A stretch of 21,416 nucleotides of DNA, taken from positions 1-21,416 of the IMG/VR virus record IMGVR_UViG_3300032322_002465; one strand, given 5' to 3'. The translations under genes and the position numbers were made by a program. Under the pieces are notes generated by a model. That model ran no database searches, was not told the origin of the DNA, and saw only the letters and a list, made by a program, of their open reading frames with translations. Source of the stretch: a virus. Shown here piece after piece: positions 4,298 through 17,582 of the stretch; positions within the stretch are counted from its first letter, which is position 1; each line of letters opens with the position of its first letter.

Positions 4298-4326
4298 ATT
4301 ATAGCAAATCGGTTATTTCTTGTCAA
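4298..4326 (-). promoter_or_regulatory. Consensus sigma70 promoter of the AAA+ ATPase gene
   Basis: Minus strand: TTGACA, 17 bases, TATAAT, with TTTGC just before the -10. Both hexamers match the sigma70 consensus exactly at optimal spacing, and an extended -10 TGC is present. The -35 lies within the last codons of the 4313-4537 gene. The predicted transcript has a leader of about 30 bases carrying the AAGGAG ribosome binding site. Confidence 0.85.
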
Positions 4327-4584: not shown

Positions 4585-4613
4585 ATTATAGCAAATGGTT
4601 TCTTTTTGGTCAA
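4585..4613 (-). promoter_or_regulatory. Near-consensus sigma70 promoter of the small membrane protein gene
   Basis: Minus strand: TTGACC, 17 bases, TATAAT, with the same TTTGC extension before the -10 as the ATPase promoter. It sits directly after the bidirectional terminator at 4618-4647. Confidence 0.83.
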
Positions 4614-4660: not shown

Positions 4661-5329
4661 TTATACGGCAGAAGGAGGAACTTGAAGATCATATGACAAC
4701 GTCGATCCAGCGGCAATTGTCCACCACCAGGTTCCCAGTGAATCTGAAGTGCGGTCAGGAATTTGGGCTACGCCATCGATAAAAACGTTTAATCTTGGAT
4801 CATCGGGCAGTGGACCATTGTCTCCTAAATCGACATATTGGTTTGGGCCCGAACTTACGGTAACTGGGCAATTGTGATCAATTAATAATTGGTCAATGGT
4901 AGATTGAGGTGTTTCTGGATCCATAAGAACAGCTATTTCTGCAGGAGAAAATTCAGGATTTGCCACAGCAGAATACACAGCCGTAAGTTCGGCTCTGGTC
5001 GCAGTTGGATCGCGTAGAATCGCTTTTTGTGCTGAATCATACGCAGGATTTGGTACCGGTTGATAGTTGGCGAACATTTGTCCAAAAATTACAGTACCAG
5101 TGGTTACTCCACAGGTCATTGGTATGTTTCCAGAAAATGAGGTATCAATTTCAAAAGAAAACAATTCAGCCTGACTTTCAATTTTTTCACTGAAATTTGA
5201 AGTCCAGACAGGTTCGTCCAGTGTGGTAACCGGTCCGCTAAAAACTGCATTACCATTGGCCGTGGCTGTAATTTGTGCCGGAGTAGCTCCAAATCCCATA
5301 CCGTAAAATTTAATTGTTTTAGTTGCCAT
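4661..5329 (-). CDS. Late-expressed protein of unknown function, possibly virion-associated
   Basis: The 222-residue protein is rich in Thr, Ser, Pro and small residues, with few basic residues and no signal peptide. The N-terminal ~75 residues have a beta-sandwich look (short alternating strands, ITATANGNAVFSGPVTT). The middle (about 95-150) is an acidic, Pro-rich helical region with repeated (D/N)P motifs. The C-terminus (residues about 175-222) again looks like beta strands with an aromatic cluster GTWWWTI. This resembles carbohydrate-binding or capsid/tail decoration folds, but I recognise no family. The ATG at 5329 is chosen because AGGAG lies 8 bases upstream; an ATG at 5347 lies before the ribosome binding site. 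The T4-type late octamer upstream and the terminator downstream make it a single-gene late unit, the usual setting of a structural protein. Confidence 0.75.
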   Translation of the reverse strand: MATKTIKFYGMGFGATPAQITATANGNAVFSGPVTTLDEPVWTSNFSEKIESQAELFSFEIDTSFSGNIPMTCGVTTGTVIFGQMFANYQPVPNPAYDSAQKAILRDPTATRAELTAVYSAVANPEFSPAEIAVLMDPETPQSTIDQLLIDHNCPVTVSSGPNQYVDLGDNGPLPDDPRLNVFIDGVAQIPDRTSDSLGTWWWTIAAGSTLSYDLQVPPSAV

Positions 5330-5350: not shown

Positions 5351-5358
5351 TATTTATC
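5351..5358 (-). promoter_or_regulatory. T4-type late promoter octamer GATAAATA
   Basis: GATAAATA on the minus strand matches the T4-family late consensus TATAAATA at 7 of 8 positions. It overlaps the TGA stop of the upstream glycosyltransferase gene and leaves 21 bases, including AGGAG, before the ATG at 5329. The geometry is that of a late promoter with a short conventional leader. Confidence 0.65.
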
Positions 5359-6100
5359 ATTTCCAATGCTGATTTACCACAGGATCATTCAGATCACTGG
5401 GCTTGGGTTGTCCGTGAAATATCAATATATCGGTGTTGTTTGTCAGCACTGTTTTTGCGATCATGCCAGGACTGTATCGATTTTTAAAATTATAGCCGTT
5501 GTCTAAACATTGCCAGCGCCAGCTTTTTATGCGTTCAGAATCTAAAAATCGCAGATGCTGATTTTCTATGATTTTTTTTAGATAATCTTGATCTCCACGG
5601 TATTTTTTCATTATTTGTTGTAAGTTTTGATTTTGAAAATCTTGCCACACGTAGCTGAATTTTTGTGTGTCCCACCACATGACACTGCTGTTGATGGTGT
5701 ATTGCAAAGGCCGCCAGAGATATTGGAAATCTCTCACAGTCCAGAACCAAGTCAATGGTAATTCACATATCCAGTCAATGTTGTCTACAATAACAGTGTC
5801 GAGATCAAAATACAACAAAGGGCCAGTGTGTTCTGTAGAATTAAACAAACACATTTTGTACCACCAGCTTTGTCTAGGTCCATGTATTTGCCATTCTGGT
5901 AAAACATGCTTGATCATGGGCTCAGGCACTGATCGATCTGCTTCAGTATACACATGCAATTGAATGCCACGAGACAAATGCCGAGTCAACATGTTATACA
6001 GCCGTTCTACATAGGTCCATGAGTAAGTATTCCCGTGTATCACGCAGGCACAATCAATCGGGCCTTCGACCGTTTCTAAATTTGCAATCTGCGTATCCAT
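5357..6100 (-). CDS. DxD glycosyltransferase (GT-A fold, GT8-like)
   Basis: The 247-residue protein has the plan of a small GT-A glycosyltransferase. An early strand (CACVIHGNTYSW) is followed by LHVYTEAD, and then by the metal/nucleotide-sugar binding motif LLYFDLDTVIVDNID with the DxD at 99-101. The aromatic-rich region WYKMCLF and the downstream VMWWDTQ are typical positions for acceptor and donor contacts, and a late IFHGQPKPSD resembles the HxxGxxKP motif of GT8 enzymes. It should transfer a sugar from a nucleotide donor to a glycan acceptor in the cytoplasm; donor and acceptor cannot be read. The start at 6100 has AGGG upstream and overlaps the preceding GT-B gene by 25 bases, suggesting coupled translation. 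Confidence 0.82.
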   Translation of the reverse strand: MDTQIANLETVEGPIDCACVIHGNTYSWTYVERLYNMLTRHLSRGIQLHVYTEADRSVPEPMIKHVLPEWQIHGPRQSWWYKMCLFNSTEHTGPLLYFDLDTVIVDNIDWICELPLTWFWTVRDFQYLWRPLQYTINSSVMWWDTQKFSYVWQDFQNQNLQQIMKKYRGDQDYLKKIIENQHLRFLDSERIKSWRWQCLDNGYNFKNRYSPGMIAKTVLTNNTDILIFHGQPKPSDLNDPVVNQHWK

Positions 6101-6918
6101 AATCCCTGTTCAATTTCTGTCACTGTGTATTCGGTATGACAAATTTCTACCAGCCATTGATCCCGATCCATATCATATGGTTGTTCAATGTTGCTCAAGT
6201 CAATACTCACTGGATGTGCCAAACTTGTTTTGTCAACAATGGGTCTGGTTCCGGCCAAAGCAGCCTGTATTCCTGGACCCGAATTATAGTTGACTATGGC
6301 ATGGCAATCAAAAGCCAGGTTATAACTGTCATAGGTGTTGGCTATTTTTTGTGGTTGTTCTATGACTACATCCCGGGGCAAATGCACAAGTCCAGCCCAG
6401 TCCAAGGCACTGCGAGGATGTGGACGCACCATGATGGGTCGGTCTGTGACCTTGCGCAACTGTTCAACCTGTTGGACCACCCAACCTTCCATGCTACACA
6501 ACCCCACTACTTGCAGACTGCGGGCGTGTTGTGCGGCTATGACGATTCTGGGATTACGGCTGACATTGATGGCCAAGCTGATTCCCAGCTTTCTAGGGCG
6601 ATCCCAATCCAAGTTTTCTTGATGTCCATAATAACCGTTGGCCGTTACGGAGTTCAAGGCAATCTTCCAGGTTTCGCCGCGATACAGGGCACCTACATCA
6701 ATGATGATCACAGGGCGACCCAGACTACGATAATGGCTCCACACAGCCTGATTGGCCGCCATGCGTCCGGACCACAGCACACTCCATATGATAACTGCGT
6801 CGGCATCCAGGCTATTGAGTTCAACTGTGTGCCCTTCACTACGTAGACTGGTCAGCACGGCCTGCAACGCAGGACCGCTGTTTTGAGCACACTGATTTGG
6901 AAAGTAGGCCACACGCAT
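6076..6918 (-). CDS. GT-B type glycosyltransferase, capsule/CDP-glycerol transferase-like (paralogue A)
   Basis: The 280-residue protein has a GT-B-like C-terminal half: DRPIMVRPHPRS (about 160-171), then HAIVNYNSGPGIQAALAGTRPIV. This is the pattern in capsular-polysaccharide and CDP-glycerol-type glycosyltransferases, where an Asn-Ser and a Gly-rich helix bind the donor. The tail IEQPYDMDRDQWLVEI aligns with the tails of the proteins at 13523-14476 and 14473-15654, so the three are paralogues. The N-terminal domain (VAYFPNQCAQNSGPALQAVL) is a Rossmann-like acceptor half. The ATG at 6918 is the only early start. It lies 18 bases from the divergent ATG at 6937, has no Shine-Dalgarno sequence, and is preceded by the palindrome at 6921-6936. 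Confidence 0.82.
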   Translation of the reverse strand: MRVAYFPNQCAQNSGPALQAVLTSLRSEGHTVELNSLDADAVIIWSVLWSGRMAANQAVWSHYRSLGRPVIIIDVGALYRGETWKIALNSVTANGYYGHQENLDWDRPRKLGISLAINVSRNPRIVIAAQHARSLQVVGLCSMEGWVVQQVEQLRKVTDRPIMVRPHPRSALDWAGLVHLPRDVVIEQPQKIANTYDSYNLAFDCHAIVNYNSGPGIQAALAGTRPIVDKTSLAHPVSIDLSNIEQPYDMDRDQWLVEICHTEYTVTEIEQGLWIRRLQI

Positions 6919-6920
6919 AA

Positions 6921-6936
6921 GGTTAAATATTTAACC
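6921..6936. promoter_or_regulatory. Perfect 16-base palindrome between divergent genes
   Basis: GGTTAAATATTTAACC is its own reverse complement and fills nearly all of the 18 bases between the start codons at 6918 (minus) and 6937 (plus). Each strand contains GTTAAATA, a 6-of-8 match to the late octamer TATAAATA, placed 7 or 9 bases before the respective ATG. It could be a divergent late promoter, an operator for a dimeric regulator, or a hairpin at the 5' end of both mRNAs. The inverted repeat is certain; the role is inferred. Confidence 0.5.
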
Positions 6937-7734
6937 ATGAAACTACCACCCCTTGAAGGAACTTTTGACCAATCTGAATTTTTTGTTTATGCCGCTGCTG
7001 ATGCTGACTATTTTGATTCCTATGGCATACCTCTCACAAACAGCCTGTTGAAACATACCCAATATGGCATACATGTGCATCTGTACAATCCTAGACCAGA
7101 TCAGTTGGATTTTTGTCGACAAACAGATCGAGTAAGCGTTACCTGGGAAACGTTTGATCCGGCGCAATTTGAATCTGCTATCAAGTTCTGGTCCAGACAG
7201 GATCTACCAGAACCCTATAATGGTCGTAAGAACAAAATGCTAGGACTAAAACAATTCACCAACAATGACAATTTGCCCATGTGGATTTACAAAACATACT
7301 ATGCTTGCATGCGTTTTGTTAGATTGGCTGAAATTGTCACTGAACCTTGCCGTTTTTTAGAAATAGACATTGACGGACTGGTGCGTGCACCTTTTCAGAT
7401 TAAGTTTGCTGACGAAGCTGATCGCGACTTTTATTTGTATGAAAAAGAAAAAGGCGGCCATTTGGCCGGATCTATTCTTTACACACCCAAGTCGTCTACC
7501 ATGCAGTTTATTCGAGAACTGGCAGCCACAATACGACAACAAATAGAACAAGACAACATCTATTGGTTTTTGGATCAGCACAGTTTAGATTTAGTTGTGA
7601 AAAAATACAACAAAGGGCTACTACCTATCAGTTATATCGATTGGCGTATGGCGCCTGATAGTGCGATCTGGTCAGCCAAAGGAAAACGCAAACATCTGGA
7701 AATATTCAAACAGGAATTGAGGAAATATAAATGA
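6937..7734 (+). CDS. Putative DxD-containing glycosyltransferase
   Basis: The 265-residue protein starts at the ATG at 6937; the frame is open upstream to 6883, but that would run through the palindrome and into the divergent gene. FFVYAAADADYF near the N-terminus is a GT-A first strand, and CRFLEIDIDGLVRAPF carries a DxD (DID, 144-146) flanked like the donor-binding motif of GT8-type enzymes. GGHLAGSILYTPKSS and WFLDQHSLDLV match the usual later blocks (substrate strand and a D-Q motif). The family is distant, so the assignment is to the fold and not to a specific transferase. It is the first gene of a ten-gene plus-strand block and overlaps the dehydrogenase gene by 4 bases (ATGA). No Shine-Dalgarno sequence is present. 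Confidence 0.72.
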   Translation: MKLPPLEGTFDQSEFFVYAAADADYFDSYGIPLTNSLLKHTQYGIHVHLYNPRPDQLDFCRQTDRVSVTWETFDPAQFESAIKFWSRQDLPEPYNGRKNKMLGLKQFTNNDNLPMWIYKTYYACMRFVRLAEIVTEPCRFLEIDIDGLVRAPFQIKFADEADRDFYLYEKEKGGHLAGSILYTPKSSTMQFIRELAATIRQQIEQDNIYWFLDQHSLDLVVKKYNKGLLPISYIDWRMAPDSAIWSAKGKRKHLEIFKQELRKYK

Positions 7735-8486
7735 AAATAGGCATCTTAGGATATGGCTGGGTTGGCAAGGCTGCCCACAAGTTATTTCCAACAGCAGTAA
7801 TACACGACAAGTACATTGAAGAGTATAAATCATTTCTTCCTAAGTGTGACATTGTATTTTTAGCGGTGCCCACTCCCTGGAACGGTCACGAACTAGACTG
7901 TAGTGCTGTCGAAGAGGCTATTTCAAATTGTAGTAGTGATTTGATTGTGATCCGCAGTGCTACCAGTCCAGGATTTGCAGATGCTATGGCCAAAAAATAT
8001 TGCAAACGTATCGTGGTACAACCCGAGTACTTGGGCGAAACTCCTAGTCATCCCATGCTAAACATGGCCGGCAGACAGTTTATGATCATTGGCGGCAATC
8101 CTGTAGATCGCAGAGCTGTGATTGATTGCTATGCCACAGTGTACAATGCCAATATCACTATTAGACAGGTCACCAATCTTGAAGCGGAAATTATAAAACT
8201 TTCAGAAAATCGAGCAATTTTTTTCAAGGTCATACAATGTCAAGAATTATACGATGCCTGTGAGGCCAGTGGTGTTGATTATTACACAGTGCGTGACGCT
8301 GTGTATGGAGATGATCCCAGGATGAACTTGTGGTGGACATTTGTGTATCCAAACAGCCGGGGCGCCAACAGCAAGTGTTTGCCCAAGGATGTACACGCCT
8401 GGTGTGCCTGGGCAGAAAGTTCCGGCTTGCATCCACAAGCAACATTAGACCTACTGGAATATAATCGCTCACTAATCAATGACTGA
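7731..8486 (+). CDS. Shortened UDP-glucose/GDP-mannose dehydrogenase family protein
   Basis: The 251-residue protein has the NAD-binding motif GYGWVG (7-12) and the signature positions of nucleotide-sugar 6-dehydrogenases in order. These are VPTP at 46-49, an RSATSPG segment (75-81; family RSTVPPG), QPEYLGE with Glu99 (family NPEFLRE), IKLSEN with Lys156 and Asn160, and SKCLPKD with the catalytic Cys216, Lys219 and Asp220. The enzyme class oxidises a nucleotide-sugar C6 alcohol to a uronic acid in two NAD-dependent steps. Full-length members have about 400-450 residues. This one ends shortly after the central domain and lacks the C-terminal domain that completes the UDP-sugar site. It is therefore either a minimal enzyme with another substrate or needs a partner. 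It overlaps both neighbours, and GAGG lies 8 bases before its ATG. Confidence 0.87.
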   Translation: MKIGILGYGWVGKAAHKLFPTAVIHDKYIEEYKSFLPKCDIVFLAVPTPWNGHELDCSAVEEAISNCSSDLIVIRSATSPGFADAMAKKYCKRIVVQPEYLGETPSHPMLNMAGRQFMIIGGNPVDRRAVIDCYATVYNANITIRQVTNLEAEIIKLSENRAIFFKVIQCQELYDACEASGVDYYTVRDAVYGDDPRMNLWWTFVYPNSRGANSKCLPKDVHAWCAWAESSGLHPQATLDLLEYNRSLIND

Positions 8487-9255
8487 CCTAATATATCAAG
8501 TCGCGGTCGGTCCTCAAAACCCGCTGTATGAATTTTGTGTCGCCAGTGTGGCACGCTATTGCCAACGCCACGGAATCACACACATTGTTCAAAGAGAACC
8601 CATATTGAAAATACGTCCAGACAACAGTCATCGTAGTAGTCTGGCAGTTGAAAGATTGGGTTATCTGCCTATTTTTGAAAAAGAAAATGCGTTTGATCTG
8701 TTTGATCAATACCACGACATCTGTGTCATAGACAGTGATATCTACATTGCCGACCATGCTCCTAACATATTTGATGAACTAGAAGACTATGAATTTGGAG
8801 GAGTAGCCGAGCGTGAGATGCCGTTGCTAGATCGACACCGCAAAAAGATTCGCAAATACAGTGAAGGACAGTATAGATCTCTTGAACATGAAGCTGATTT
8901 TCGTTGGAATAACCTCGGAGCTGAATTCTATAACATGGGACTGATGCTTTGTTCACACAAAATTAAATCATATCTAAATGGTCAAACAGCATGGCAATTT
9001 ATCAATAGGCCTGAATTCAAAAGATTTGTTGATGGGGAAGGACACTGGCGCTGGTCCACAGATCAAACTTTATTAAATTACTGGATCAAACGATACAAAA
9101 TTAAAACTAAAAATTTAGATTGGCGTTGGAATGCCTTGTATCGCGGCATCGAAGATCAATATCTCGGCCAGGCATATTTTATACATTTCTTTTTGGCTGA
9201 TCACATACCCAAAGATCGTACAATAGAGCAAATTGTTTCAGAGATATATCAATGA
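8479..9255 (+). CDS. DxD glycosyltransferase (GT-A fold)
   Basis: The 258-residue protein begins with a GT-A opening (LIYQVAVGPQNPLYEFCVAS), then VERLGYLPIFEK, then CVIDSDIYIAD with the DxD motif DSD at 85-87. The middle AEFYNMGLMLCSH and the WSTDQTLLNYW block with its D-Q pair match the donor/acceptor and lid blocks of GT8-like enzymes. The late FIHFFLADHIPKDR places a histidine where GT8 members carry their second metal ligand. It therefore looks like an intact sugar transferase of unknown specificity. Its start overlaps the dehydrogenase gene by 8 bases, and its stop overlaps the next start in ATGA, consistent with one polycistronic message. Confidence 0.82.
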   Translation: MTDLIYQVAVGPQNPLYEFCVASVARYCQRHGITHIVQREPILKIRPDNSHRSSLAVERLGYLPIFEKENAFDLFDQYHDICVIDSDIYIADHAPNIFDELEDYEFGGVAEREMPLLDRHRKKIRKYSEGQYRSLEHEADFRWNNLGAEFYNMGLMLCSHKIKSYLNGQTAWQFINRPEFKRFVDGEGHWRWSTDQTLLNYWIKRYKIKTKNLDWRWNALYRGIEDQYLGQAYFIHFFLADHIPKDRTIEQIVSEIYQ

Positions 9256-9944
9256 AAGCCTATGTAATCACTATTCAAGGTCACGAGTATTCAGAATCAG
9301 TGGCCCGTCGTTGTGTGGAATCAGCCAATAAATTTGATATAGCGGTGGAAACTTTTTGGGCTGTGACCAAAGACAATGTTCGGCAAGTAATGGATCAAGA
9401 AAATCTACGTTGGTCTTGGGCCAATATGAACACCGCAAAAACTCGTTGTCCTTATACCAGTCTTGAACAATTCCCGTATAGAACCAAAAGTTTAGAAGCA
9501 AAAATGGCCTGCTCGATGAGCCACTACCTGTTATGGAAACGATGTGTGGAACTCAACGAAAACGTTTTGATATTAGAACATGATGCAGTTTTTATAGCAC
9601 CTTTACCGCCTATTGAATTTACAGGCGCCATACAGATCAATGATCCTGCTGGCGGTGGATATCGTGGCCGAGACCATAGCATGATCATGCGAGAACGAGC
9701 CACGCCAGGGGTTCATTCACTGACACCAAAACGTCCCATTGACAGTATGATTCCAGACGGATTCAGCGGCAACAGTGCTTACATTGTCAAGCCCTGGGCA
9801 GCTGAAAAATTTGTTGGCACTTTTCACCGTTTAGGAGTGTGGCCCAATGATGCCACTATTTGTAAACAACTGTTTCCTTGGCTCCAAGAATTATATCCAT
9901 TTGTGACTGTGGTACAACAAAAACACAGCACCAGCACTGTATAA
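9252..9944 (+). CDS. Glycosyltransferase family 25 protein (LPS-type)
   Basis: The 230-residue protein matches the GT25 layout. It opens with AYVITIQGHEYSESVARRC, has the conserved Ser-His of CSMSHYLLWKRC (about 87-98), and then LILEHDAVFI with the acidic EHD motif at 109-111 in place of DxD. A later SGNSAYIVKPWAAEKF corresponds to the family block that ends the donor site. GT25 enzymes commonly add galactose or glucose to lipopolysaccharide core or O-chains. The gene overlaps its upstream neighbour by 4 bases and ends in GTATAA, where the stop lies inside a late-promoter octamer that serves the following gene. A second GT25 member is at 12940-13551. Confidence 0.87.
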   Translation: MKAYVITIQGHEYSESVARRCVESANKFDIAVETFWAVTKDNVRQVMDQENLRWSWANMNTAKTRCPYTSLEQFPYRTKSLEAKMACSMSHYLLWKRCVELNENVLILEHDAVFIAPLPPIEFTGAIQINDPAGGGYRGRDHSMIMRERATPGVHSLTPKRPIDSMIPDGFSGNSAYIVKPWAAEKFVGTFHRLGVWPNDATICKQLFPWLQELYPFVTVVQQKHSTSTV

Positions 9945-9947
9945 ATA
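9940..9947 (+). promoter_or_regulatory. Perfect T4-type late promoter octamer TATAAATA
   Basis: TATAAATA is identical to the T4 late consensus. It overlaps the TAA stop codon of the GT25 gene and is followed by 26 bases, including AAAGGA, before the ATG at 9974. It falls in the only gap in the plus-strand block, so genes from 9974 to 13551 can be transcribed late independently of the first four. Confidence 0.8.
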
Positions 9948-9973
9948 TACGCATATTAAAATAAAAGGATCCC

Positions 9974-10549
9974 ATGGGTAAAAATGAAACATACATGAAA
10001 GCACATTATCCTGACGCCCTTCCTACCAAGGTACAGGGTCGGGTCATAACTGAAATGCGGGCAGTGGCTGGCGCCACACCGCCCGGATGTTTCATGGAAG
10101 TAGGAGTGTATCAAGGCGGGACCGCCTGGCACTTGTGTGAAGTGGCAAAGAAACAAAATCGACAGGTGTTCTTGTATGATACTTTTGAAGGTATACCTTT
10201 CAAGGACGACATAGATCATCACAATGTGGGTGACTTCAGCGACACTGACTACGACTTGGTAAAATCACAGTTGCCCTATGCCACAGTGATCAAAGGCACT
10301 TTTCCTGACAGTGCTATGACTATGCCGCCTATTGCTTTTGCACACATTGATTGTGATCAGTACCGTGCTATACGACAAAGTGTGGCCCATGTATTGCCCT
10401 TGATGGTACCAGGCGGCATCATTTGGTTTGACGATGTGGTTGACTGGATACCCGGAACCATGCAAGCCATCAAAGAAATGTTTGGCGACCAATATGTGGT
10501 CAGTGCCACCAAAAAAGTCTATGTAAAAATCACAGACAGGATGAAATGA
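9974..10549 (+). CDS. TylF/MycF-like O-methyltransferase
   Basis: The 191-residue protein matches the TylF (macrocin O-methyltransferase) family. Motif I is FMEVGVYQGGTAWHL (40-54), then FLYDTFEGIP as the strand 2 block ending in the SAM-ribose acid. AFAHIDCDQY (121-130) carries the metal-binding Asp pair, and GGIIWFDDV holds the second Asp-Asp. These metal-dependent enzymes methylate sugar hydroxyls. In a glycosyltransferase cluster the likely role is O-methylation of a sugar residue, for example as a chain cap. The start has AAAGGA about 7 bases upstream and its own late promoter. It overlaps the next gene by 4 bases. It is shorter than typical TylF proteins (about 250 residues), mainly at the N-terminus, but all visible motifs are present. 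Confidence 0.87.
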   Translation: MGKNETYMKAHYPDALPTKVQGRVITEMRAVAGATPPGCFMEVGVYQGGTAWHLCEVAKKQNRQVFLYDTFEGIPFKDDIDHHNVGDFSDTDYDLVKSQLPYATVIKGTFPDSAMTMPPIAFAHIDCDQYRAIRQSVAHVLPLMVPGGIIWFDDVVDWIPGTMQAIKEMFGDQYVVSATKKVYVKITDRMK

Positions 10550-11121
10550 AAATATATCAATACGCCAATCACGACGAGTATGTGGCCGCACAGATCGAAG
10601 CAAATGTACGCAAAATCAAAAATGTCTGGGTTGATCGACGAACCATTGAAACCATATCGGCCAGACATGATCAAGTGCATGGTATACTGTGCCATGGTAC
10701 CAGGAATGCCACGGAACAACGATATTTTTTAGAGTCGTTTCCGCAAGCCAAAATCATAGGCACAGAGATCAGTCCCACCGCTGACCAGTTTCCTATGACC
10801 GTGCAATGGGACTTTCATGAAGTCAATGCAGACTGGACCGGGCGCATGGACATAGTGTACAGCAATGCCATAGATCACTCGTATGATCCGGCATTGGCCT
10901 TGCGTGTGTGGGCTGACCAACTGGCCACCAATGGCCGCTTGTATGTGGAACATGCCTATGCTCCCGAGGATAACTATGCGCGAGCATCGGATCCCTTGGA
11001 AATTCACGACCCAGAAATACGTGAGATCATACAGAGTCTTGGCCTGACCTTGGAACATACTTTTGATACCACTGGCATCAAAGGTCGTTGTCCTTGTAGA
11101 GTGTATGTGATAAGAGTTTGA
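10546..11121 (+). CDS. Class I SAM-dependent methyltransferase-like protein
   Basis: The 191-residue protein has a motif I-like strand and turn (GILCHGTRNATEQRYF, about 46-61) in which the usual Gly-x-Gly is changed to HGTRN. Then comes AKIIGTEISPTA, with Glu in the SAM-ribose position. MDIVYSNAIDHSYDP is the typical post-strand-4 block of methyltransferase type 11 proteins (DxVxSxxxxEH in others), and LATNGRLYVEHAYAP follows. It keeps the fold and an acidic ribose contact, so activity is plausible but the glycine-rich loop is unusual. Overlap by 4 bases with the upstream methyltransferase gene and AGGA close to the ATG indicate coupled expression. The target is presumably a sugar or a glycan terminus, inferred only from context. 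Confidence 0.77.
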   Translation: MKIYQYANHDEYVAAQIEANVRKIKNVWVDRRTIETISARHDQVHGILCHGTRNATEQRYFLESFPQAKIIGTEISPTADQFPMTVQWDFHEVNADWTGRMDIVYSNAIDHSYDPALALRVWADQLATNGRLYVEHAYAPEDNYARASDPLEIHDPEIREIIQSLGLTLEHTFDTTGIKGRCPCRVYVIRV

Positions 11122-11122
11122 T

Positions 11123-11683
11123 ATGATACATCCTGATTTTTCCCATTGCCACAGCCTACAAGAGTTCTATGATGAAGCCTGCACATTGTTCACAGCTGAA
11201 TATGGTGTGGATTTTGTGTTGTATTGGCAACACATCAACCAACTGGCCAAGCACTGTGACAGTTACAAAGAACTAGGAGCTTTCCAAGGAGTCAGTGCCG
11301 CGGCTGCCATGTTGGGTAACCCACAAATGAAATATGTGGAACTGGTTGATGTGACCTTTGAAAGACTCGTGCCACATCAGCATGTGTTCAAAGATTTTCC
11401 GGGCCAACTCAAACTCAATCAAAATTCCAGCGTGGATACTGCGGTGCCAGTATCATCCGTGGACATGATTCTAGTAGATAGTTTGCATACAGCCAAACAT
11501 GTCATCCAAGAACTACACCTACATGCGCCGCATGTGAAAAAATACATAGTGTTTCATGATGCCAAATATGCTCCTATCAAAGAGGTCATAGACAAGTTTG
11601 TGGCCAAAAATAAAGAGTGGCGCTATCTGATATACGATGATCGCAGTTTTGGTTACGCTGTTATAGAAAAAAATCTATCATGA
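11123..11683 (+). CDS. Methyltransferase-fold protein (Methyltransf_24 / cephalosporin-hydroxylase-like)
   Basis: The 186-residue protein has motif I as SYKELGAFQGVSAAAAM (about 47-63), strand 2 ending in YVELVDVT, VDMILVDSLHTAKHV in the strand 4 region, and KKYIVFHDAKYA in the strand 5 region with a His-Asp pair. This order matches the class I methyltransferase subfamily in which LxDxxHxxxxVxxDL and FHD motifs bind a metal, often found in glycan loci. It starts 1 base after the preceding stop codon and overlaps the next gene by 4 bases. It is the third methyltransferase-type gene in a row. Whether it methylates a sugar hydroxyl, hydroxylates or is a structural partner of its neighbours cannot be told from sequence. 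Confidence 0.75.
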   Translation: MIHPDFSHCHSLQEFYDEACTLFTAEYGVDFVLYWQHINQLAKHCDSYKELGAFQGVSAAAAMLGNPQMKYVELVDVTFERLVPHQHVFKDFPGQLKLNQNSSVDTAVPVSSVDMILVDSLHTAKHVIQELHLHAPHVKKYIVFHDAKYAPIKEVIDKFVAKNKEWRYLIYDDRSFGYAVIEKNLS

Positions 11684-12453
11684 AACATGTGGTTCAACGC
11701 TATTGGAGCACCAGGATACCCAATCTCATGTACAGTTGTCCCGGGTTTGGAGACATTGTACACAGTTGCCTGTTGACCTATCTGTATGGGCAGGCACACG
11801 GACAACCGGCCACCTTGCACATAGCCAGTCATCAGTACAATCGCGACAAGCCTGCCACCTGGGCCGAAGTGATTGGTCTGTTTCCACCTGGCACGGTTTT
11901 TTTACAACCTCACAAAACTGGCGATATGACTGATCAAGCATTTCTTGATCTTGTCCTGTCTCAGGCACCCAATGCTGAACTACACTACTACAAAAAATAT
12001 CCTGGTAAATTACAGTCACCAATTGCACCTTCGTTCTGGGTGGATGACTATCTTGTTGCTGAAAAATTTCCTTGTCTTTCAGCAACCAACCCAGGCCACT
12101 CTATACAACTGCCAGACAATTTTGCTACCATGCAAATGGATGCGACCAGTATCCAAAGGAGACCCACACAACCACAAATTGATCAACTTTATAAAAAGTT
12201 TGCAGATCTTGGTTGTGAAATTGTCATAGTAGGTGGCGAGGCTACAGATCCAGCCTTGCGCCGAGCACCCGGAGCAGGCTATGCCATGAGTCGTGCCCGT
12301 TATCACATTGGTGTTGACAGCGGTTACCTGCATCTGGCACAACTTTATTTCCGACCAGAAAACATTTATCTTTATACCAATAGAGATGAAGGCAAATGGG
12401 AACACCATCTCAAGATGGCCCGCGACAATGGATGTCACATCAATGAGTATTGA
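11680..12453 (+). CDS. GT9/heptosyltransferase-like glycosyltransferase
   Basis: The 257-residue protein has the two hallmarks of the GT9-like GT-B fold. These are an N-terminal glycine-rich loop SCPGFGDIVHSC (19-30; family GxGDxxxxxP) and a C-terminal ARYHIGVDSGYLHLAQLY (206-223), the donor-site block found in heptosyltransferases as xGxDSGxxHLA. Between them VIVGGEATDP is the strand that ends the inter-domain cleft. Heptosyltransferases transfer ADP-heptose to LPS inner core; related phage proteins have unknown donors. At 257 residues it is shorter than the usual 320-360, so part of the N-terminal domain is reduced. It overlaps the upstream gene by 4 bases and the downstream methyltransferase gene by 11. 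Confidence 0.8.
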   Translation: MKHVVQRYWSTRIPNLMYSCPGFGDIVHSCLLTYLYGQAHGQPATLHIASHQYNRDKPATWAEVIGLFPPGTVFLQPHKTGDMTDQAFLDLVLSQAPNAELHYYKKYPGKLQSPIAPSFWVDDYLVAEKFPCLSATNPGHSIQLPDNFATMQMDATSIQRRPTQPQIDQLYKKFADLGCEIVIVGGEATDPALRRAPGAGYAMSRARYHIGVDSGYLHLAQLYFRPENIYLYTNRDEGKWEHHLKMARDNGCHINEY

Positions 12454-12943
12454 CACGATCACTCACAACGATCAGCCTTACCCTCGATTCCAAAGCGAAG
12501 GGTTTGCGGCACAATATGCTTGGCCTTTTGCCAAAAAACTCTGCATTGGGCAAGGATTAGACATAGGGTGTAACAGGGCCGAATGGGCATTTCCTGGCGC
12601 TCAAATGATTGATTTAAAAATTGACGACGACTACGATGCTTACAATCTGCCGGATCACAGCGTTGATTACATTTTTAGTTCGCACTGCCTGGAACATTTG
12701 ACTGATTGGGTAAAGGCGCTGGATCATTGGACCACACGATTGAGATCCGGAGGTGTGATGTTCTTGTATCTGCCGCACTATGATCAAACCTACTGGCGTC
12801 CTTGGCACAATCGCAAACATCTCAGTGTGTTACAGTCTGACTACTTGGCAGATTACTACAAATCCAGAGGATACAGAAAAATATTTGTGACTCCAGGTCA
12901 CGATCTAAATCATAGCTTTTATGCTGTAGCAGAAAAACAATGA
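12443..12943 (+). CDS. Class I SAM-dependent methyltransferase (type 11-like)
   Basis: The 166-residue protein has motif I GLDIGCNRAEW (38-48), then AQMIDLKI with Asp as the ribose ligand. Next come the strand 4 block VDYIFSSHCLEHLTDW, whose HCLEH is the classic type 11 signature, and RSGGVMFLYLPHYDQ after it. It is a compact but complete methyltransferase core. ATGs at 12428 and 12443 are both possible; 12443 gives the smaller overlap with the GT9-like gene, and neither has a clear ribosome binding site. The end overlaps the following GT25 gene by 4 bases. By context it modifies a sugar residue of the same glycan; the target atom cannot be inferred. Confidence 0.83.
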   Translation: MSIDTITHNDQPYPRFQSEGFAAQYAWPFAKKLCIGQGLDIGCNRAEWAFPGAQMIDLKIDDDYDAYNLPDHSVDYIFSSHCLEHLTDWVKALDHWTTRLRSGGVMFLYLPHYDQTYWRPWHNRKHLSVLQSDYLADYYKSRGYRKIFVTPGHDLNHSFYAVAEKQ

Positions 12944-13551
12944 AAAATTACATCATCCATCTGCCAGACTTTGACAGCAGTGTTGCCATGGCCACACATG
13001 CTCTTGACACAGGAACTAGCCAGGGTTGGAATTTAGAACTGTATGCCGGTGTTGACGGAAGAACGGTGGCCGGAGACGCATGGGACTCCACTGGTATCAC
13101 CATCAATCAGGCCAGTGCCAAATGTCGAGACATGATGCAACTTCCTGGTGTTCGAGGTTGTTTTTTGAGTCATTGGAATTTGTGGCAACACTGTGCCAAA
13201 ACACAACAGCCCATTGGCATATTTGAACATGACATAGAATTTTTAAAATCTTATCAAAAACTTGAATTTGAACATGTGCTCAAACTGGAGGGATTCAGTC
13301 TTAAAAAACCTAGACCTGCTGGCGAATGGTATGAAGGTGCCAGGGCCTACATATTAAAACCAGCAGGAGCTCTACGGCTGTTGAACTGGGTCAAACAAAA
13401 TGGTGCTATACCCGCAGATGTGTGCATAGGATTAAATGTTGTGGACATTGTTTTACAAAGAGATGAACTGGTAAGAATCGCCCAACAGGCCCCTGACAAG
13501 TGGCACAAACACAAACAGAGTTTTACTTGGAACCTGGAACAACAGGAGTAA
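12940..13551 (+). CDS. Glycosyltransferase family 25-like protein, last gene of the plus block
   Basis: The 203-residue protein has the GT25 features seen at 9252-9944. YIIHLPDFDSSVA is the first strand, VRGCFLSHWNLWQHC (71-85) holds the Ser-His, and IGIFEHDIEFL has the EHD motif at 96-98. ARAYILKPAGALRLL follows as the late block. The two genes are therefore paralogues, but the sequences are well diverged, so they probably use different donors or linkages. It overlaps the upstream methyltransferase by 4 bases. Its 3' end overlaps the 3' end of the opposite-strand GT-B gene by 29 bases, a tail-to-tail junction without any strong terminator, so the two messages may interfere. Confidence 0.83.
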   Translation: MKNYIIHLPDFDSSVAMATHALDTGTSQGWNLELYAGVDGRTVAGDAWDSTGITINQASAKCRDMMQLPGVRGCFLSHWNLWQHCAKTQQPIGIFEHDIEFLKSYQKLEFEHVLKLEGFSLKKPRPAGEWYEGARAYILKPAGALRLLNWVKQNGAIPADVCIGLNVVDIVLQRDELVRIAQQAPDKWHKHKQSFTWNLEQQE

Positions 13552-14476
13552 TCCATTCACGCATGTGACTCCAACAACGACCTGTGCGCACATCATTGAA
13601 GCTCCAGTGGCACTGGGCTAGTTTTCTAATCCAGTGGTCTCGGTCAGGCATGTGAGGATTTTCTAATCTGGCAAAATCTGTGTTGGCCACATCTCCGGCC
13701 TGACAATAACTTGGATCATCAGTGACAAAAACCGGAATGCCTTCTATGGCGGCCACTGCGGCAGGAGTACTATTATGACAAATCAAGGCCCAACAGTTGA
13801 CAAGATCTGCTCTGATGTGTCTGTGTTGTGGACTTAACATGGCTTTGTATTTGGCCATTATTTTTTCATACTTGACATAGTTCTTCCAGTCGCCAGGATG
13901 CCAACGTATGATCACAGGTCTATCTGTGTGTGTTCTTATGTTACAGAGTGTTTGTTCCAACCATGACATGAGATCAACTCCGCGCATGCTCCAGCCCATG
14001 GGCCGCTGAAGAGTGATCAACAAGTGATTGCCTGTGTTGCGCCAGGGTTTGAGATCTATGTTGTAATCTCTACGGATGTTGGCCCAATTTTCTTCACCAG
14101 GACGATCATTACAATAGATGCCGGTGGCTGGGAACACACCGTTGAAACTGTAGCGTAGATATTTGTGAGGATTGCTTGGATTCAAATAAATGAACACATT
14201 TGAATCTATGCTCAGCCAATATCTACGCAAGCGGGTCTGAGTATCAATGACCATTTTACGTACAGCGTAGTGTGGCAACTGTGTTTTTTTAGGATTGGCA
14301 CCAAATGCATTGCCTATGATGGCAGCCACGTCACAGTCTTCGTAGGCATGTGACTGAGTGCAACTGGCGCTGTCTCCACATTTGGCGGCTCCTTCTGCAA
14401 AGTAGGTCAAGGCATTAATTTTTTCATCGCCGTTGACATGACGAGGCAAGCTACTAAGATAGCTTCTGATGATCAT
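13523..14476 (-). CDS. GT-B type glycosyltransferase, capsule-like (paralogue B)
   Basis: The 317-residue protein shares the layout of 6076-6918. There is an ENWANIRRDYNIDL segment, then HLLITLQRPMGWSMRG, TDRPVIIRWHPGDW, LICHNSTPAAVAAIEGIPVFV, and the tail LENPHMPDRDHWIRKLAQC. The NS...G.P block is the donor-site pattern of capsular polysaccharide and CDP-glycerol type transferases. The N-terminal ~90 residues, with a Cys-rich stretch (CGDSASC, SHAYEDCD), differ from the other two. It starts in a 4-base overlap with the 14473-15654 gene and is the last gene of the minus-strand unit that begins at 17098. Donor and acceptor are unknown. Confidence 0.82.
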   Translation of the reverse strand: MIIRSYLSSLPRHVNGDEKINALTYFAEGAAKCGDSASCTQSHAYEDCDVAAIIGNAFGANPKKTQLPHYAVRKMVIDTQTRLRRYWLSIDSNVFIYLNPSNPHKYLRYSFNGVFPATGIYCNDRPGEENWANIRRDYNIDLKPWRNTGNHLLITLQRPMGWSMRGVDLMSWLEQTLCNIRTHTDRPVIIRWHPGDWKNYVKYEKIMAKYKAMLSPQHRHIRADLVNCWALICHNSTPAAVAAIEGIPVFVTDDPSYCQAGDVANTDFARLENPHMPDRDHWIRKLAQCHWSFNDVRTGRCWSHMREWITPVVPGSK

Positions 14477-15654
14477 TTGTCAGACACTATTGTGAATTTT
14501 GTCAACATCTCTGCCGGTTCATCGTTGGGCACATTCTCTTCGGGCGCGGTCACAGAATTGTGCGATTTGATTTTTGGTCGTTCGTTATTTTGCAATACCA
14601 TTTGCCAGGCTTCGCCACTTATCATTTCTGTCAGGGAAAACTGACCGTAGGCAATACTTGACAGCCATTTGTAAACGAAGTTTTCGTCAGGCTTGAATGG
14701 CGACTCTATCTGACCAAGATCTTTACTACACACCGGGTCGGCTCCGGTGGGTGCTAGAGTAAATGCAGGTACGCCAAAATGCACAGCTTCGACAGAGGCT
14801 ATACTGTTATAGGTTACCACTGCCCAGATATCATCTGCTAGAGCTTCATATAGTGTGTTCTGACTTCTATTTGATCTTGAAGCTTTTTCTCTGACAACGA
14901 TTGGTCTATCTGTATGTGTTTGCAACGTCTGAATAGTTTGTTCCAACCACTCATGGCGATTTATGCCATAATACTTGCAAGGTTTATCACTGGGCGCTAC
15001 CAACAATATCTTTGAACCAGGATTGCGCCAACCCTGATATTGCAAGTCTTTGTTCCAGGCACACAATTTTTTCCAACGATCATCAGGTACATCCAACATG
15101 AAATTTTGTTGCATGGCATTCTTTTGTATGCGATGATATATCTTTTTGCCTCCATCGTTGTTGCGACTGGGGTAGTTGCCAAGATATCCGCTTTCCATAA
15201 AATAATAATCTATGCCTCGGTCTTGTACATGATCACATATTTTTCCATTGGCTATTCCTCGAACCAACACAGGAGTTTCTATACTTTCTTTGTTTTTCCA
15301 ATAAAGAGATTTGTCCATGAGCTTGGCTTCTTTAAAAGCTGCCACGACCATGGCTGGAAAGTCACTGTATTTTAACAGAATACTCAGTTGATCTTGTTTG
15401 CTCCTGATCATCGGGTCTATTTGTTTGTTGAATATGTAAGATGCAGACTTTTTGTTGGTAACTGGAAACTCGAGTGGATCGCGTTGATATTTTATCAATA
15501 GACCAATTTCATGATACAGCAGGAGGGCTTCTCGAGTGGTTTGTTGCAGTGCTTCTTCAATGTTGCTGAAGTTATTTTTTATGTTGGTACGGACTGGCTG
15601 TTCACCATCATACTCGCTGGGCCAACGTTCAACCAAGGCCAATGGTAATATCAT
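14473..15654 (-). CDS. GT-B type glycosyltransferase, capsule-like (paralogue C, with N-terminal extension)
   Basis: At 393 residues this is the longest of the three paralogues. The conserved C-terminal half contains THTDRPIVVREKAS, WAVVTYNSIASVEAVHFGVPAF, and the tail IESPFKPDENFVYKWLSSI, aligning with the two shorter proteins. The histidine of the R.HP motif is replaced (REKAS), so its catalytic or donor-binding details may differ. Residues 1-140 form an extra N-terminal part, largely helical and charged. The last ~45 residues (MVLQNNERPKIKSHNSV onward) form a Pro/Glu-rich tail. It overlaps the genes on both sides by 4 bases and lies in the middle of the minus-strand operon. Confidence 0.78.
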   Translation of the reverse strand: MILPLALVERWPSEYDGEQPVRTNIKNNFSNIEEALQQTTREALLLYHEIGLLIKYQRDPLEFPVTNKKSASYIFNKQIDPMIRSKQDQLSILLKYSDFPAMVVAAFKEAKLMDKSLYWKNKESIETPVLVRGIANGKICDHVQDRGIDYYFMESGYLGNYPSRNNDGGKKIYHRIQKNAMQQNFMLDVPDDRWKKLCAWNKDLQYQGWRNPGSKILLVAPSDKPCKYYGINRHEWLEQTIQTLQTHTDRPIVVREKASRSNRSQNTLYEALADDIWAVVTYNSIASVEAVHFGVPAFTLAPTGADPVCSKDLGQIESPFKPDENFVYKWLSSIAYGQFSLTEMISGEAWQMVLQNNERPKIKSHNSVTAPEENVPNDEPAEMLTKFTIVSDK

Positions 15655-16340
15655 TCAAACGTCCTTTGCTGGCAGTACTCAGTAAGTATGCGTTCTCGGT
15701 GCCACTCCTCACCTTGAGGTGTATCAGCAAATTCAGTAAAACAAGGTGTTCCTAATGTATAGTGTAAAAGTTTTGCATCAGGATTGGCACCAAATTCATC
15801 TGGCAACCAGTTCCATTCTACGGGTAGTTCTCCAATGCGTTCATCATCCAACCACGAAAACCTATGCAGATAACTGCCAGGCTGGCCTTGCACAAATTCA
15901 GGAGTAAGTTTTCTATTGGGCCAACTGCTACAGTTCCATAATATCACACTTGACCAATTTTTTCTAGGGTAATCTTCGTTCTTGGCACCCATGTATTTTT
16001 CTGTCATGCGTGTTTTGTAATCGTGCTTGACCACCATGACATCATAGTGCCCTTCCATGCGCATATTCCACAGTTTCACAATGTCATCACGTAGCACCAT
16101 ATCGCCATCAATGAATATAGCCCAACCTGTATAACTCATGAGATGTGGCACTAGGAATCTAGTGTACACAAAATGATTGCTGTTATCACCATGTGTTTCT
16201 TCATAATCTTGGAACAGATTTAGTGCCACTGGCACTATGGCCACGGGCTGGCTGGCATGGCGGATAATGCTGTTTACGCAAGTATGATAGGCTATGGATT
16301 CTCTGGGATCGTAGCCCACAAAGATTGGAATAGGAGTCAT
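15651..16340 (-). CDS. DxD glycosyltransferase (GT-A fold)
   Basis: The 229-residue protein opens with IPIFVGYDPRESIAYHTCVNSII, a typical first-strand block of a family of small GT8-like phage and bacterial transferases. WAIFIDGDMVLRDD follows, with the DxD motif DGD at 78-80. Later blocks are SSVILWNCSSWPN and a WNWLPDEFG segment followed by KLLHYTLGTPCF, whose histidine may be a metal ligand. The order and length fit an intact cytoplasmic sugar transferase. It overlaps both neighbours by 4 bases: the nucleotidyltransferase-cupin gene before it and paralogue C after it. A preceding enzyme that activates sugars and a following transferase are consistent with one biosynthetic unit. Confidence 0.85.
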   Translation of the reverse strand: MTPIPIFVGYDPRESIAYHTCVNSIIRHASQPVAIVPVALNLFQDYEETHGDNSNHFVYTRFLVPHLMSYTGWAIFIDGDMVLRDDIVKLWNMRMEGHYDVMVVKHDYKTRMTEKYMGAKNEDYPRKNWSSVILWNCSSWPNRKLTPEFVQGQPGSYLHRFSWLDDERIGELPVEWNWLPDEFGANPDAKLLHYTLGTPCFTEFADTPQGEEWHRERILTEYCQQRTFE

Positions 16341-17098
16341 TGACGTCTTTCTATGTCTTCCTCAACACAGTTTTCACCGTACTGAATTTCGACCACACGC
16401 AAAGGTTGATCAGTAAAATTGCAAAGCTGATGCCACTCTCCATGATCTATATGAATATGCTGATGACGGTTGAATTCGCCCAGGAGTTCTGCATCGCTTT
16501 TGCGATTGATGGTATAAACTGTGGCTGTTCCTTCACTCACAAACCAGTGCTCGGCACGCTGTTGGTGACGTTGCATGCTGAGTCGTTGCCCAGGTTCCAC
16601 TGTAAGCTCTTTGACCTTGACCTGGGCACCGGCTTCGTGTAGTACTCTGTAGTAGCCCCAGGCACGCTCGGTTTTGGGTGCTTTCCACTCCTGCAAGATC
16701 CACGAGCTAGAATTGGCCTTGTCCGAACCGCCTACACCGAACACAAATTCTATGCCTGGCACACTCATTTCAGGAATGTTGTCCTGGGTACGATCACCAC
16801 CATTGGCAAATATAATCTTGGCATCTGGATAGTGTGCTCGAACTTGATGCAACAAGTGACAGGCTGTACCGTCGTCATCGTCAAAAGTATACACTTCGTC
16901 CACGGGCCGGAGATTGTTCAGCACCGACAATCGTTCTTGCCAGGGCATGAATGCGCAACCTTTTTTACGGGCCAACCACTCGTCGCTGTTGATGCCCACG
17001 ATCAGCTGGTCGCCCAACATTCTGGCTGATTTGATTAGTCGGATGTGTCCTGAATGTACCGGATCAAATCCACCGCTTACTACCACTATAGTCGTCAT
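16337..17098 (-). CDS. Nucleotidyltransferase (RfaE/HldE-C type) fused to mannose-6-phosphate isomerase type 2 cupin
   Basis: The 253-residue protein joins two domains. Residues 1-140 are a cytidylyltransferase-like nucleotidyltransferase with GGFDPVHSGH (9-18; HxGH at 15-18), GDQLIVGINSD and a Ser triplet SSSWIL (130-135) in the position of the family STSxI motif. This resembles the ADP-heptose-forming domain of HldE. Residues about 143-253 are a cupin of the mannose-6-phosphate isomerase type 2 class: ERAWGYYRVLHEAG, VEPGQRLSMQRHQQRAEHW with His178 and His184, then GEWHQLCN with His223 as likely metal ligands. The protein may activate a sugar phosphate and epimerise or isomerise a linked sugar. 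It is the first gene of the 17098-to-13523 operon. There is no Shine-Dalgarno sequence; a late octamer sits 5 bases before the ATG. Confidence 0.88.
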   Translation of the reverse strand: MTTIVVVSGGFDPVHSGHIRLIKSARMLGDQLIVGINSDEWLARKKGCAFMPWQERLSVLNNLRPVDEVYTFDDDDGTACHLLHQVRAHYPDAKIIFANGGDRTQDNIPEMSVPGIEFVFGVGGSDKANSSSWILQEWKAPKTERAWGYYRVLHEAGAQVKVKELTVEPGQRLSMQRHQQRAEHWFVSEGTATVYTINRKSDAELLGEFNRHQHIHIDHGEWHQLCNFTDQPLRVVEIQYGENCVEEDIERRQ

Positions 17099-17103
17099 GT
17101 GGA

Positions 17104-17111
17104 TATTTATC
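17104..17111 (-). promoter_or_regulatory. Candidate late promoter octamer GATAAATA upstream of the nucleotidyltransferase-cupin gene
   Basis: GATAAATA on the minus strand matches TATAAATA at 7 of 8 positions. It ends 5 bases before the ATG at 17098 and lies in the 31-base gap after uvsY. Transcription would begin near the start codon, giving a leaderless or nearly leaderless mRNA. Confidence 0.5.
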
Positions 17112-17129: not shown

Positions 17130-17582
17130 TTAAACTTGAATGTCTTCCATGCCTGCTGTGCGCAAACGCACAATATGGCCCATTTGCCACTGTTTGGTAT
17201 CTAGGCCTTTCATGATACCCAACCAGCGGTTGCGTAACAAGGCTACTTCGTTAATAATGGTTTCAAAATCAATGACTTCGTCCTCACCATCTACATACTT
17301 TTCGGCATCTCTGCTGGTCAAAGCACGCTGATAACCTTCTAGATATTTTTGGAAGTGTCGGCGCCGTATTTTACGCAGTTGTATGTTGAGATAATTAAGA
17401 ACCGCTTCGATCTCTTGTAGTTGATTAAAACGTTGTTCGGTTACGCCAGGTAGAGCTGTAATGGCTTTTTCTACTAGGCCGCCAATCCTGCAGTCACGCT
17501 TGGCTTCCTCTAGTTCACGTTCATAGTGTGCTATAAAATCTGGAATAGCGCCAAGATTGGCAACTACTTTACTGTACCACAT
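17130..17582 (-). CDS. uvsY: UvsY-like recombination mediator
   Basis: The 150-residue protein is charged, helical and rich in Arg and Lys. The core LNYLNIQLRKIRRRHFQKYL, the segment RALTSRDAEKYVDGEDEVID and the ending LRNRWLGIMKGLDTKQWQMG recall the UvsY family of T4-like phages, though I rely on memory of the family and on its position beside uvsX. UvsY helps load UvsX onto gp32-coated single-stranded DNA, and all three partners are in this window. T4 UvsY has 137 residues, so the length fits. The start ATG shares one base with the stop of the acidic protein gene (TGATG), so translation is coupled. After it, 31 bases lead to the late-promoter octamer of the glycan operon. Confidence 0.8.
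   Translation of the reverse strand: MWYSKVVANLGAIPDFIAHYERELEEAKRDCRIGGLVEKAITALPGVTEQRFNQLQEIEAVLNYLNIQLRKIRRRHFQKYLEGYQRALTSRDAEKYVDGEDEVIDFETIINEVALLRNRWLGIMKGLDTKQWQMGHIVRLRTAGMEDIQV

Follow-up and report, generated by a model that had tools for sequence, protein, structure and literature searches.

Phage glycosyltransferases are usually explained gene by gene, as agents of DNA glucosylation, of host seroconversion or of simple virion sugars. Among the described systems, T4-like pelagimyophages of aquatic bacteria carry a hypervariable host recognition cluster rich in glycosyltransferases (PMC7029224), moraphages have several core glycosyltransferases (PMC12619734), and the virion proteins of mycobacteriophages are glycosylated by phage-coded enzymes as a shield, as Freeman et al. 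(2023) are cited in PMC12619734. In chloroviruses, mostly soluble viral glycosyltransferases give the capsid an O-methylated glycan whose core is conserved and whose outer part is specific to the virus (PMC9614988). Here, we describe a glycan-synthesis island in a linear virus record of 21,416 bases (IMGVR_UViG_3300032322_002465), the whole of which is called the window. The island (5357-17098) holds 16 glycan-type genes, is 99.6% coding, with neighbours mostly overlapping by 4 bp, and is bordered by uvsY on one side and a phrog_1250 ATPase on the other, in a genome of jumbo-phage type.

With moderate confidence, we interpret the island as a self-contained, late, cytoplasmic and exchangeable pathway that would make a strain-specific, O-methylated glycan, most likely on a virion protein. 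A preliminary description of the window had given the same coordinates and number of genes, which proved correct, and had set the island between an AAA+ ATPase and the uvsY/uvsX genes of a T4-like phage, where profile matches also place it: the ATPase, the right-hand fixed flank, lies at 3242-4261 (phrog_1250, E = 1.1e-83), uvsY, the left-hand fixed flank, at 17130-17582 (phrog_231, E = 3.2e-14) and the uvsX recombinase at 17834-18892 (phrog_97, E = 1.1e-69), all on the minus strand. A gp32-like single-stranded DNA-binding protein (phrog_1192 match) is also encoded in the window, UvsX is 66-68% identical to the UvsX of jumbo phages such as Phosso, Atu_ph07 and GAP32, and a gp23-type capsid protein (PF07068) was found in 10 of 12 long related records; the uvsX/uvsY/gp23 markers of T4-like jumbo phages are thus represented in the window or in its relatives. 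The 16 genes comprise ten of glycosyltransferase type, four with a methyltransferase fold, one short uridine diphosphate (UDP)-sugar dehydrogenase (UDGH) and one nucleotidyltransferase-cupin (NTcupin). They form three blocks: GT8a and GTx1 on the minus strand (5357-6918); a variable interior of ten genes on the plus strand (6937-13551), in the order GTx2, UDGH, GTx3, GT25a, TylF, MTb, MTc, GT9, MTd and GT25b; and GTx4, GTx5, GT8b and NTcupin on the minus strand (13523-17098). The genes of the two minus-strand blocks are shared across relatives and are referred to as the frame.

The pelagimyophage cluster is similar in being a hypervariable island with many GT8-type glycosyltransferases, an rfaE-like nucleotidyltransferase and a UDP-glucose dehydrogenase. 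However, it is located, along with tail fibres, between VrlC and gp14 and has a mean length of 44.6 kb (PMC7029224), whereas islands of the window type lie between uvsY and the phrog_1250 ATPase, measure 6.7-12.9 kb, have fixed frame genes and occur in an inverted form. No tail fibre was recognised in the window or in the closed loci described below, and the VrlC-gp14 location is not theirs. Smaller runs are found in Pelagibacter phage Mosig, where homologues of GT8b and GTx4 occur in a short methyltransferase/glycosyltransferase run, and in CcrColossus, one of the phiCbK-like Caulobacter phages, where gp126-gp131 include GTx4 and GT8b homologues side by side and a GT9-family gene. The latter run, however, is small, has no annotated methyltransferases, and lies after tail genes and before lysis genes. 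In mycobacteriophages, virion glycosylation reportedly depends on a small number of glycosyltransferase genes, and an island comparable to the present one is not known from them. The likeness to chloroviruses is at the gene level only: the glycosyltransferases are soluble and coded by the virus, some belonging to a common base set and others to a variable one. Chlorovirus glycosylation is proven on the major capsid protein, whereas in the phages the genes form one exchangeable unit and a virion acceptor is only presumed. Bacterial O-antigen and capsule loci likewise have conserved border genes around an exchangeable interior of glycosyltransferases and nucleotide-sugar enzymes, but the phage islands are without a lipid-carrier initiator, a flippase or a multi-pass membrane protein. 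The absence of a multi-pass protein also separates them from gtrABC-type seroconversion cassettes, although no search was aimed at the GtrA family itself. Hypervariable islands rich in glycosyltransferases are already known from T4-like phages, and the papers searched contained no other account of this one. As far as searched, the fixed-frame, invertible, promoter-carrying form is new, and so are its site, the frame common to relatives around an interior that is exchanged, the inverted form, which is old, the architecture of late promoters and the family of KpsC-fold transferases. The genes are ordinary singly; the organised exchangeable system is unusual.

The island was compared with 264 related IMG/VR loci, obtained from four scans of viral contigs and labelled L with a number. 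The preliminary description had proposed a search for recurrence of the whole set as a unit, and its result was positive: L234 has the whole interior with its gene order nearly unchanged, and large parts of it recur in L233, L168, L226, L054, L107, L142 and L138, with amino acid identities of 55-94% for the recurring genes. Given this recurrence in relatives, the gene set is far beyond chance. The cassette of L234 sits in an inverted frame, whose GTx1 is 41% identical to that of the window, so that the interior is seen in both frame orientations. L107 and L142 have a nucleotide-sugar (SDR) epimerase (PF01370, E = 1.8e-23) at the position of UDGH, and their DNA is 94% identical across the cassette while the genes just outside it are 70-75% identical. 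The reverse pattern was observed between the window and L117, with surroundings 79-83% identical and an unrelated interior. Judged from these identity patterns, cassettes are exchanged between divergent phage backbones. The interiors of other relatives include a GDP-mannose dehydratase (E = 5e-119), a UDP-GlcNAc 2-epimerase (E = 4e-87), RmlD, an FkbM methyltransferase and an S-adenosylmethionine (SAM) synthetase. Thus, the phage-owned, multi-step pathway of the preliminary description is well supported, but it is not a single fixed pathway, the window holding one allele of an exchangeable island. The order of TylF and MTb (9974-11121) is swapped relative to L234, L107 and L138. L107 and L168, from different samples, are 100% identical over their cassette overlap and could represent one and the same phage. 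In L011 (3834-5006) and three other loci, uvsY is adjoined by a complete SAM synthetase gene, which possibly feeds the island methyltransferases.

Both uvsY and the ATPase were present in 62 closed loci, some of them from the same contig, and the distance between the two genes defines four classes. It is 226-1907 bases in 20 nearly empty loci, with at most a methyltransferase and g8 (a gene adjoining the island, described below); 1.9-3.3 kb in 22 loci with NTcupin, with or without GT8b; 6.7-12.9 kb in 15 full islands in the window orientation; and 8.0-10.7 kb in four full islands in which the block from NTcupin to GTx1 is inverted. The largest closed island is that of the window, and with incomplete loci added, 72 are of the window type and 25 are inverted. 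Among cultured relatives, Phosso and Vibrio phage 2.275 lack an island next to uvsX/uvsY. As would be expected for successive steps on a common base, the frame gene content is nested: GTx4/GTx5 never occurs without GT8b (16/16), and GT8b occurs mostly with NTcupin (17/19). Mapped on a 91-row uvsX tree, the four classes need 23 changes, three to six per class being forced by well supported branches; the tree is weakly resolved and blurred by phage recombination, and these changes are not event counts, but they are indications of repeated gain, loss and exchange of island alleles. A recent phase switch as the origin of the inverted form is not supported. The two orientations differ too much in GTx1 (only ~40% identity) for that, so the inversion is old, and exchange has spread it.

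The expression class of the island was assessed from the position of the motif NTAAATA ahead of homologues of each gene, either with a start codon 4-9 nt further on (leaderless) or with a Shine-Dalgarno sequence and a start at 12-26 nt. At these distances, it was found before the genes that lead operons or lie at the border, namely NTcupin (81 of 100 homologues), g8 (50 of 55) and GTx2 (20 of 27), and before GTA (19 of 44 leaderless and three of the Shine-Dalgarno type). It was nearly absent before the early genes uvsX (0/140), uvsY (1/147), gp32 (0/64) and the ATPase (0/81), and also before GT8b (2/84) and GTx4 (1/80), as expected because these two lie inside operons. Genes near gp23 had the motif in 21 of 98 cases, against 6.5 in shuffles. 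The T4 late consensus TATAAATA alone was not above chance in the window, the signal being seen only in the positional test on homologues. In the window itself, the motif ATAAATA (17099-17110, minus strand) ends 5 nt before the NTcupin start (ATAAATATCCAC-ATG), and g8 has a late-type motif and a Shine-Dalgarno sequence upstream. The divergent starts of GTx1 and GTx2 are 18 bp apart, and the perfect 16-bp palindrome GGTTAAATATTTAACC (6920-6935) between them, with almost no leader on either side, is a candidate bidirectional late promoter. A single copy of its core, TTAAATATTTAA, is present in 16 of 266 loci, and it lies between GTx1 and GTx2 wherever a listed GTx1 start was inspected. The ATPase and g7 have near-perfect sigma-70 promoters instead (4298-4326 and 4585-4613), with terminator-like hairpins nearby, which would separate an early ATPase unit from the late island. 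From these motifs, the island looks to be expressed late, together with the genes of the virus particle, and promoters carried within the block would explain how it functions in either orientation.

Of most of the 16 genes, the preliminary description's reading as glycan enzymes was borne out by Pfam/PHROG, profile-profile or fold comparisons, and we regard the gene-level claims as strong. Five of the ten glycosyltransferases have profile support, three have profile-profile matches and a KpsC/WbbB-like predicted fold, and two were assigned by a DxD motif and context only. The first gene of the left frame operon is NTcupin (16337-17098, minus strand; PF01467, E = 2.8e-15; PF01050, E = 3.1e-23; phrog_7878, E = 6e-27), in which a cytidylyltransferase-like domain is fused with a cupin of the mannose-6-phosphate isomerase type. 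Its closest solved structures are ethanolamine-phosphate and glycerol-3-phosphate cytidylyltransferases, and since these are CDP-alcohol cytidylyltransferases, the heptose role suggested by the name of phrog_7878 is not secure. Nucleotidyltransferase-cupin fusions up to 56% identical were also seen in SAR86, SAR11 and other bacteria (L283-L357), in one SAR86 contig (L291) beside apparent surface-polysaccharide genes. NTcupin shares an operon, read away from uvsY, with GT8b (15651-16340, minus strand; PF01501, E = 1.7e-8; phrog_28018, E = 8e-36), which has an invariant DxD and a profile match to WbbM (E = 1.4e-5). At the other end of the frame, GT8a (5357-6100, minus strand; phrog_1962, E = 4.2e-22) has an invariant DLD.

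GTx1 (6076-6918), GTx4 (13523-14476) and GTx5 (14473-15654), all on the minus strand, had no Pfam or PHROG profile match above the cut-off, and neither they nor g8 and GTx2 gave anything significant in sequence searches of the PDB; structure prediction was therefore used. The AlphaFold2 model of GTx1 (predicted local distance difference test, pLDDT, 93) has a GT-B, KpsC/WbbB fold, and its top 25 Foldseek matches in the PDB are all transferases of 3-deoxy-D-manno-octulosonic acid (Kdo), with KpsC/WbbB/KrkA first (E = 2e-8). By hhalign, GTx1, GTx4 and GTx5 are one family (E = 1e-38 between GTx4 and GTx1, 2e-31 between GTx5 and GTx4, and 1e-25 between GTx5 and GTx1), and 14 of 21 members of the GT-B-type GTx5 family match the putative glycosyltransferase domain DUF6716 (best E = 0.0015). 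No relative of GTx4 was detected in 84,980 bacterial and archaeal genomes scanned. The nearest known enzymes are the retaining Kdo transferases of GT99, GT107 and GT140 (WbbB, KpsC and KrkA), which GTx1 resembles in its predicted modified GT-B fold and GTx4 by profile homology. The (K/R)XHP motif, defined as CMP (cytidine monophosphate)-binding in Kdo transferases (PMC12887879), is invariant as RPHP in GTx1 and as RWHP in GTx4, where R191, H193 and P194 are invariant in 23 homologues; GTx5 does not retain it. The nucleophilic Asp of the catalytic QXXXD motif, in contrast, is replaced by Ser in GTx1 (QXXXS) and by Gly in GTx4 (QXXXG), so the donor or mechanism probably differs from that of the Kdo transferases. 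GTx1 and GTx4 thus probably take their sugar from a CMP donor but transfer it by another mechanism.

All interior genes are on the plus strand. The operon is headed by GTx2 (6937-7734), a probable GT-A glycosyltransferase whose residues D144 and D146 are invariant in the homologue alignment and which matched nothing in Pfam, PHROG or the PDB. GTx3 (8479-9255), also a probable GT-A enzyme, has a DSD motif, a conserved cassette position and a single match (phrog_28746, E = 0.0022); no link of either to other GT-A families was found by profile-profile comparison. UDGH (7731-8486; PF00984, E = 1.8e-10; PF03721, E = 1.2e-7) keeps the NAD and central domains, the catalytic Cys and PKD, and its alignment to the UDP-glucose 6-dehydrogenase 3vtf runs through CLPKD. 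Its C-terminal UDP-binding domain (PF03720) was not matched, and the 15 aligned homologues are similarly short. Such short dehydrogenases without the UDP-binding domain are widespread (L013, L236-L247, L248, L252-L257), sometimes alone directly after uvsY and sometimes at another genomic place. GT25a (9252-9944; PF01755, E = 4.6e-11) and GT25b (12940-13551; PF01755, E = 1.3e-10) align with each other (hhalign E = 8e-36), and the GT9-like gene (11680-12453), with PF01075 under the cut-off (E = 0.02), has homologues at 80-82% in the same cassette position. The methyltransferase-type proteins are TylF, a macrocin-type sugar O-methyltransferase (9974-10549; PF05711, E = 1.7e-12; PF13578, E = 7e-13); MTb, with a SAM-methyltransferase fold (10546-11121; a weak PF13847 match, E = 0.0087); MTc, of the Methyltransf_24 or rhamnosyl O-methyltransferase type (11123-11683; PF13578, E = 5.6e-6; PF04989, E = 0.0024); and the SAM methyltransferase MTd (12443-12943; PF13489, E = 8e-9; PF08241, E = 1.8e-7), whose start was corrected to 12443 from 12293.

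These assignments suggest an order of steps. The frame genes NTcupin, GT8b, GTx4/GTx5, GTx1 and GT8a would make a common glycan base, with NTcupin activating a building block and GT8b and the KpsC-fold enzymes GTx1 and GTx4 adding the residues that follow, for which the host probably provides the CMP-activated sugars. The outer residues that mark this phage would then be added and O-methylated by the variable interior, UDGH supplying a uronic acid. The benefit may be a particle surface that is protected or diversified. Transmembrane prediction for the 254 proteins of 42 closed islands gave a single segment in six and none in the other 248, and multi-pass membrane proteins are lacking. PF02397, PF00953 and PF01943 (lipid-carrier initiators and the Wzx-type flippase family) and PF00303 (thymidylate-synthase type) are absent from 12 related records of 103-344 kb, which may be incomplete; control genomes were positive. 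These absences argue against a complete O-antigen pathway, gtr-type seroconversion and classical DNA glycosylation. The late-type motifs, together with the lack of membrane and lipid-carrier functions, point to decoration of a virion protein, and in CcrColossus the GTx4 and GT8b homologues closely follow tail protein genes. Of the two destinations named in the preliminary description, a virion or a host-surface glycan, the evidence therefore favours the first at about even probability, and the receptor or superinfection effects that it had envisaged are not favoured.

Several points weigh against decoration of the virion. Its late promoters are inferred from motifs, whose expectation in shuffled sequences is not zero (24 of 100 for NTcupin and 11 of 27 for GTx2), and GTx2 and GTx3 make up two of ten glycosyltransferases assigned by motif only. 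The acceptor, taken to be a virion protein, is a candidate only. Moreover, GT8, GT9, GT25 and Kdo-transferase-fold enzymes are typical of lipopolysaccharide (LPS) core synthesis, and the island enzymes could act on host lipid A-core without a flippase of their own. The main rival, which we consider possible but rather unlikely, is accordingly that the island remodels the host LPS core late in infection, its enzymes working on lipid A-core from the cytoplasmic side of the inner membrane. Progeny set free by lysis would then avoid sticking to debris or to cells that are already infected, or competing phages would be shut out. The invariant (K/R)XHP of the KpsC-fold enzymes is likewise a feature of LPS core and capsule families, core modification needs no phage flippase, and the glycosyltransferase islands of pelagimyophages have been interpreted in this way (PMC7029224). 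Late-type promoters, however, act once most of the risk of superinfection is past, none of the 42 islands has a membrane-anchored component, and the level of diversity suits a phage-borne antigen at least equally well.

The candidate for a virion surface protein or glycan acceptor is g8 (4661-5329, minus strand), a hypervariable protein adjoining the island, with a predicted beta-sandwich fold (AlphaFold2 pLDDT 92). Its identification as a known structural protein failed, with no match in 50,697 phage records, no Pfam family and no significant fold match, the best being uncultured phage proteins (E = 0.002) and a carbohydrate-binding module (E = 0.056); nor is g8 beside every full island, which also tells against its being the acceptor on the virion. 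Were g8 released rather than built into the virion, the product could be a free or secreted phage-coded glycoconjugate. The border position of g8, its hypervariability, its own late-type motif and its fold are compatible with this, but no export function was recognised in the islands and g8 is present also without a full island, and we consider such a product improbable. Decoration of a modified DNA base against restriction appears very improbable: although phages are known whose glycosyltransferases modify DNA with several sugars (Pyle et al. 2024, as cited in PMC12619734), a hydroxymethylase gene of the thymidylate-synthase family occurs in 0 of the 12 related records, and the late expression, the number of genes, the methyltransferases and the dehydrogenase are unlike known DNA glycosylation. 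A chance fragment of a host O-antigen or capsule locus, carried without phage function, is hardly credible, for although the enzymes resemble bacterial surface-polysaccharide enzymes and NTcupin has the bacterial relatives mentioned, the insertion site is fixed, the late promoters are of phage type, the genes are intact and densely packed, the cassette order is conserved across divergent phages, and GTx4 has no relative in the cellular genomes scanned.

No tRNA was found in the window, and an Rfam search gave no match. Outside the island, radical-SAM-type genes are repeatedly inserted among uvsX, uvsY and gp32, in the window (1-948 and 19000-19875) and in many relatives. They often adjoin a 220-aa gene (19856-20518) that is sulfotransferase-like by motif only and has no Pfam match. 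A small membrane protein with three segments, DUF2061-like by eye, is encoded at 953-1357, and the three genes that follow it (1330-3118), without a PHROG match, recur in about six loci.

More tentatively, the island could be regarded as a phage "serotype locus," an invertible, promoter-carrying cassette exchanged at a fixed site and specifying a strain-specific, O-methylated virion glycan. Such a locus, whose probability we put somewhat below even, would be for viruses of prokaryotes what capsid glycosylation is for chloroviruses, with an organisation like that of bacterial O-antigen loci. In its organisation, regulation and exchange, the multi-step pathway resembles the surface-antigen loci of bacteria, except that its promoters are of phage late type and membrane export is lacking, and it adds a family of KpsC-fold transferases with no cellular relative in the scan made. 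Should the product be carried by virions, large phages of a widespread group would possess surface sugars that are genetically encoded and switchable, with consequences for phage recognition, adsorption and competition.

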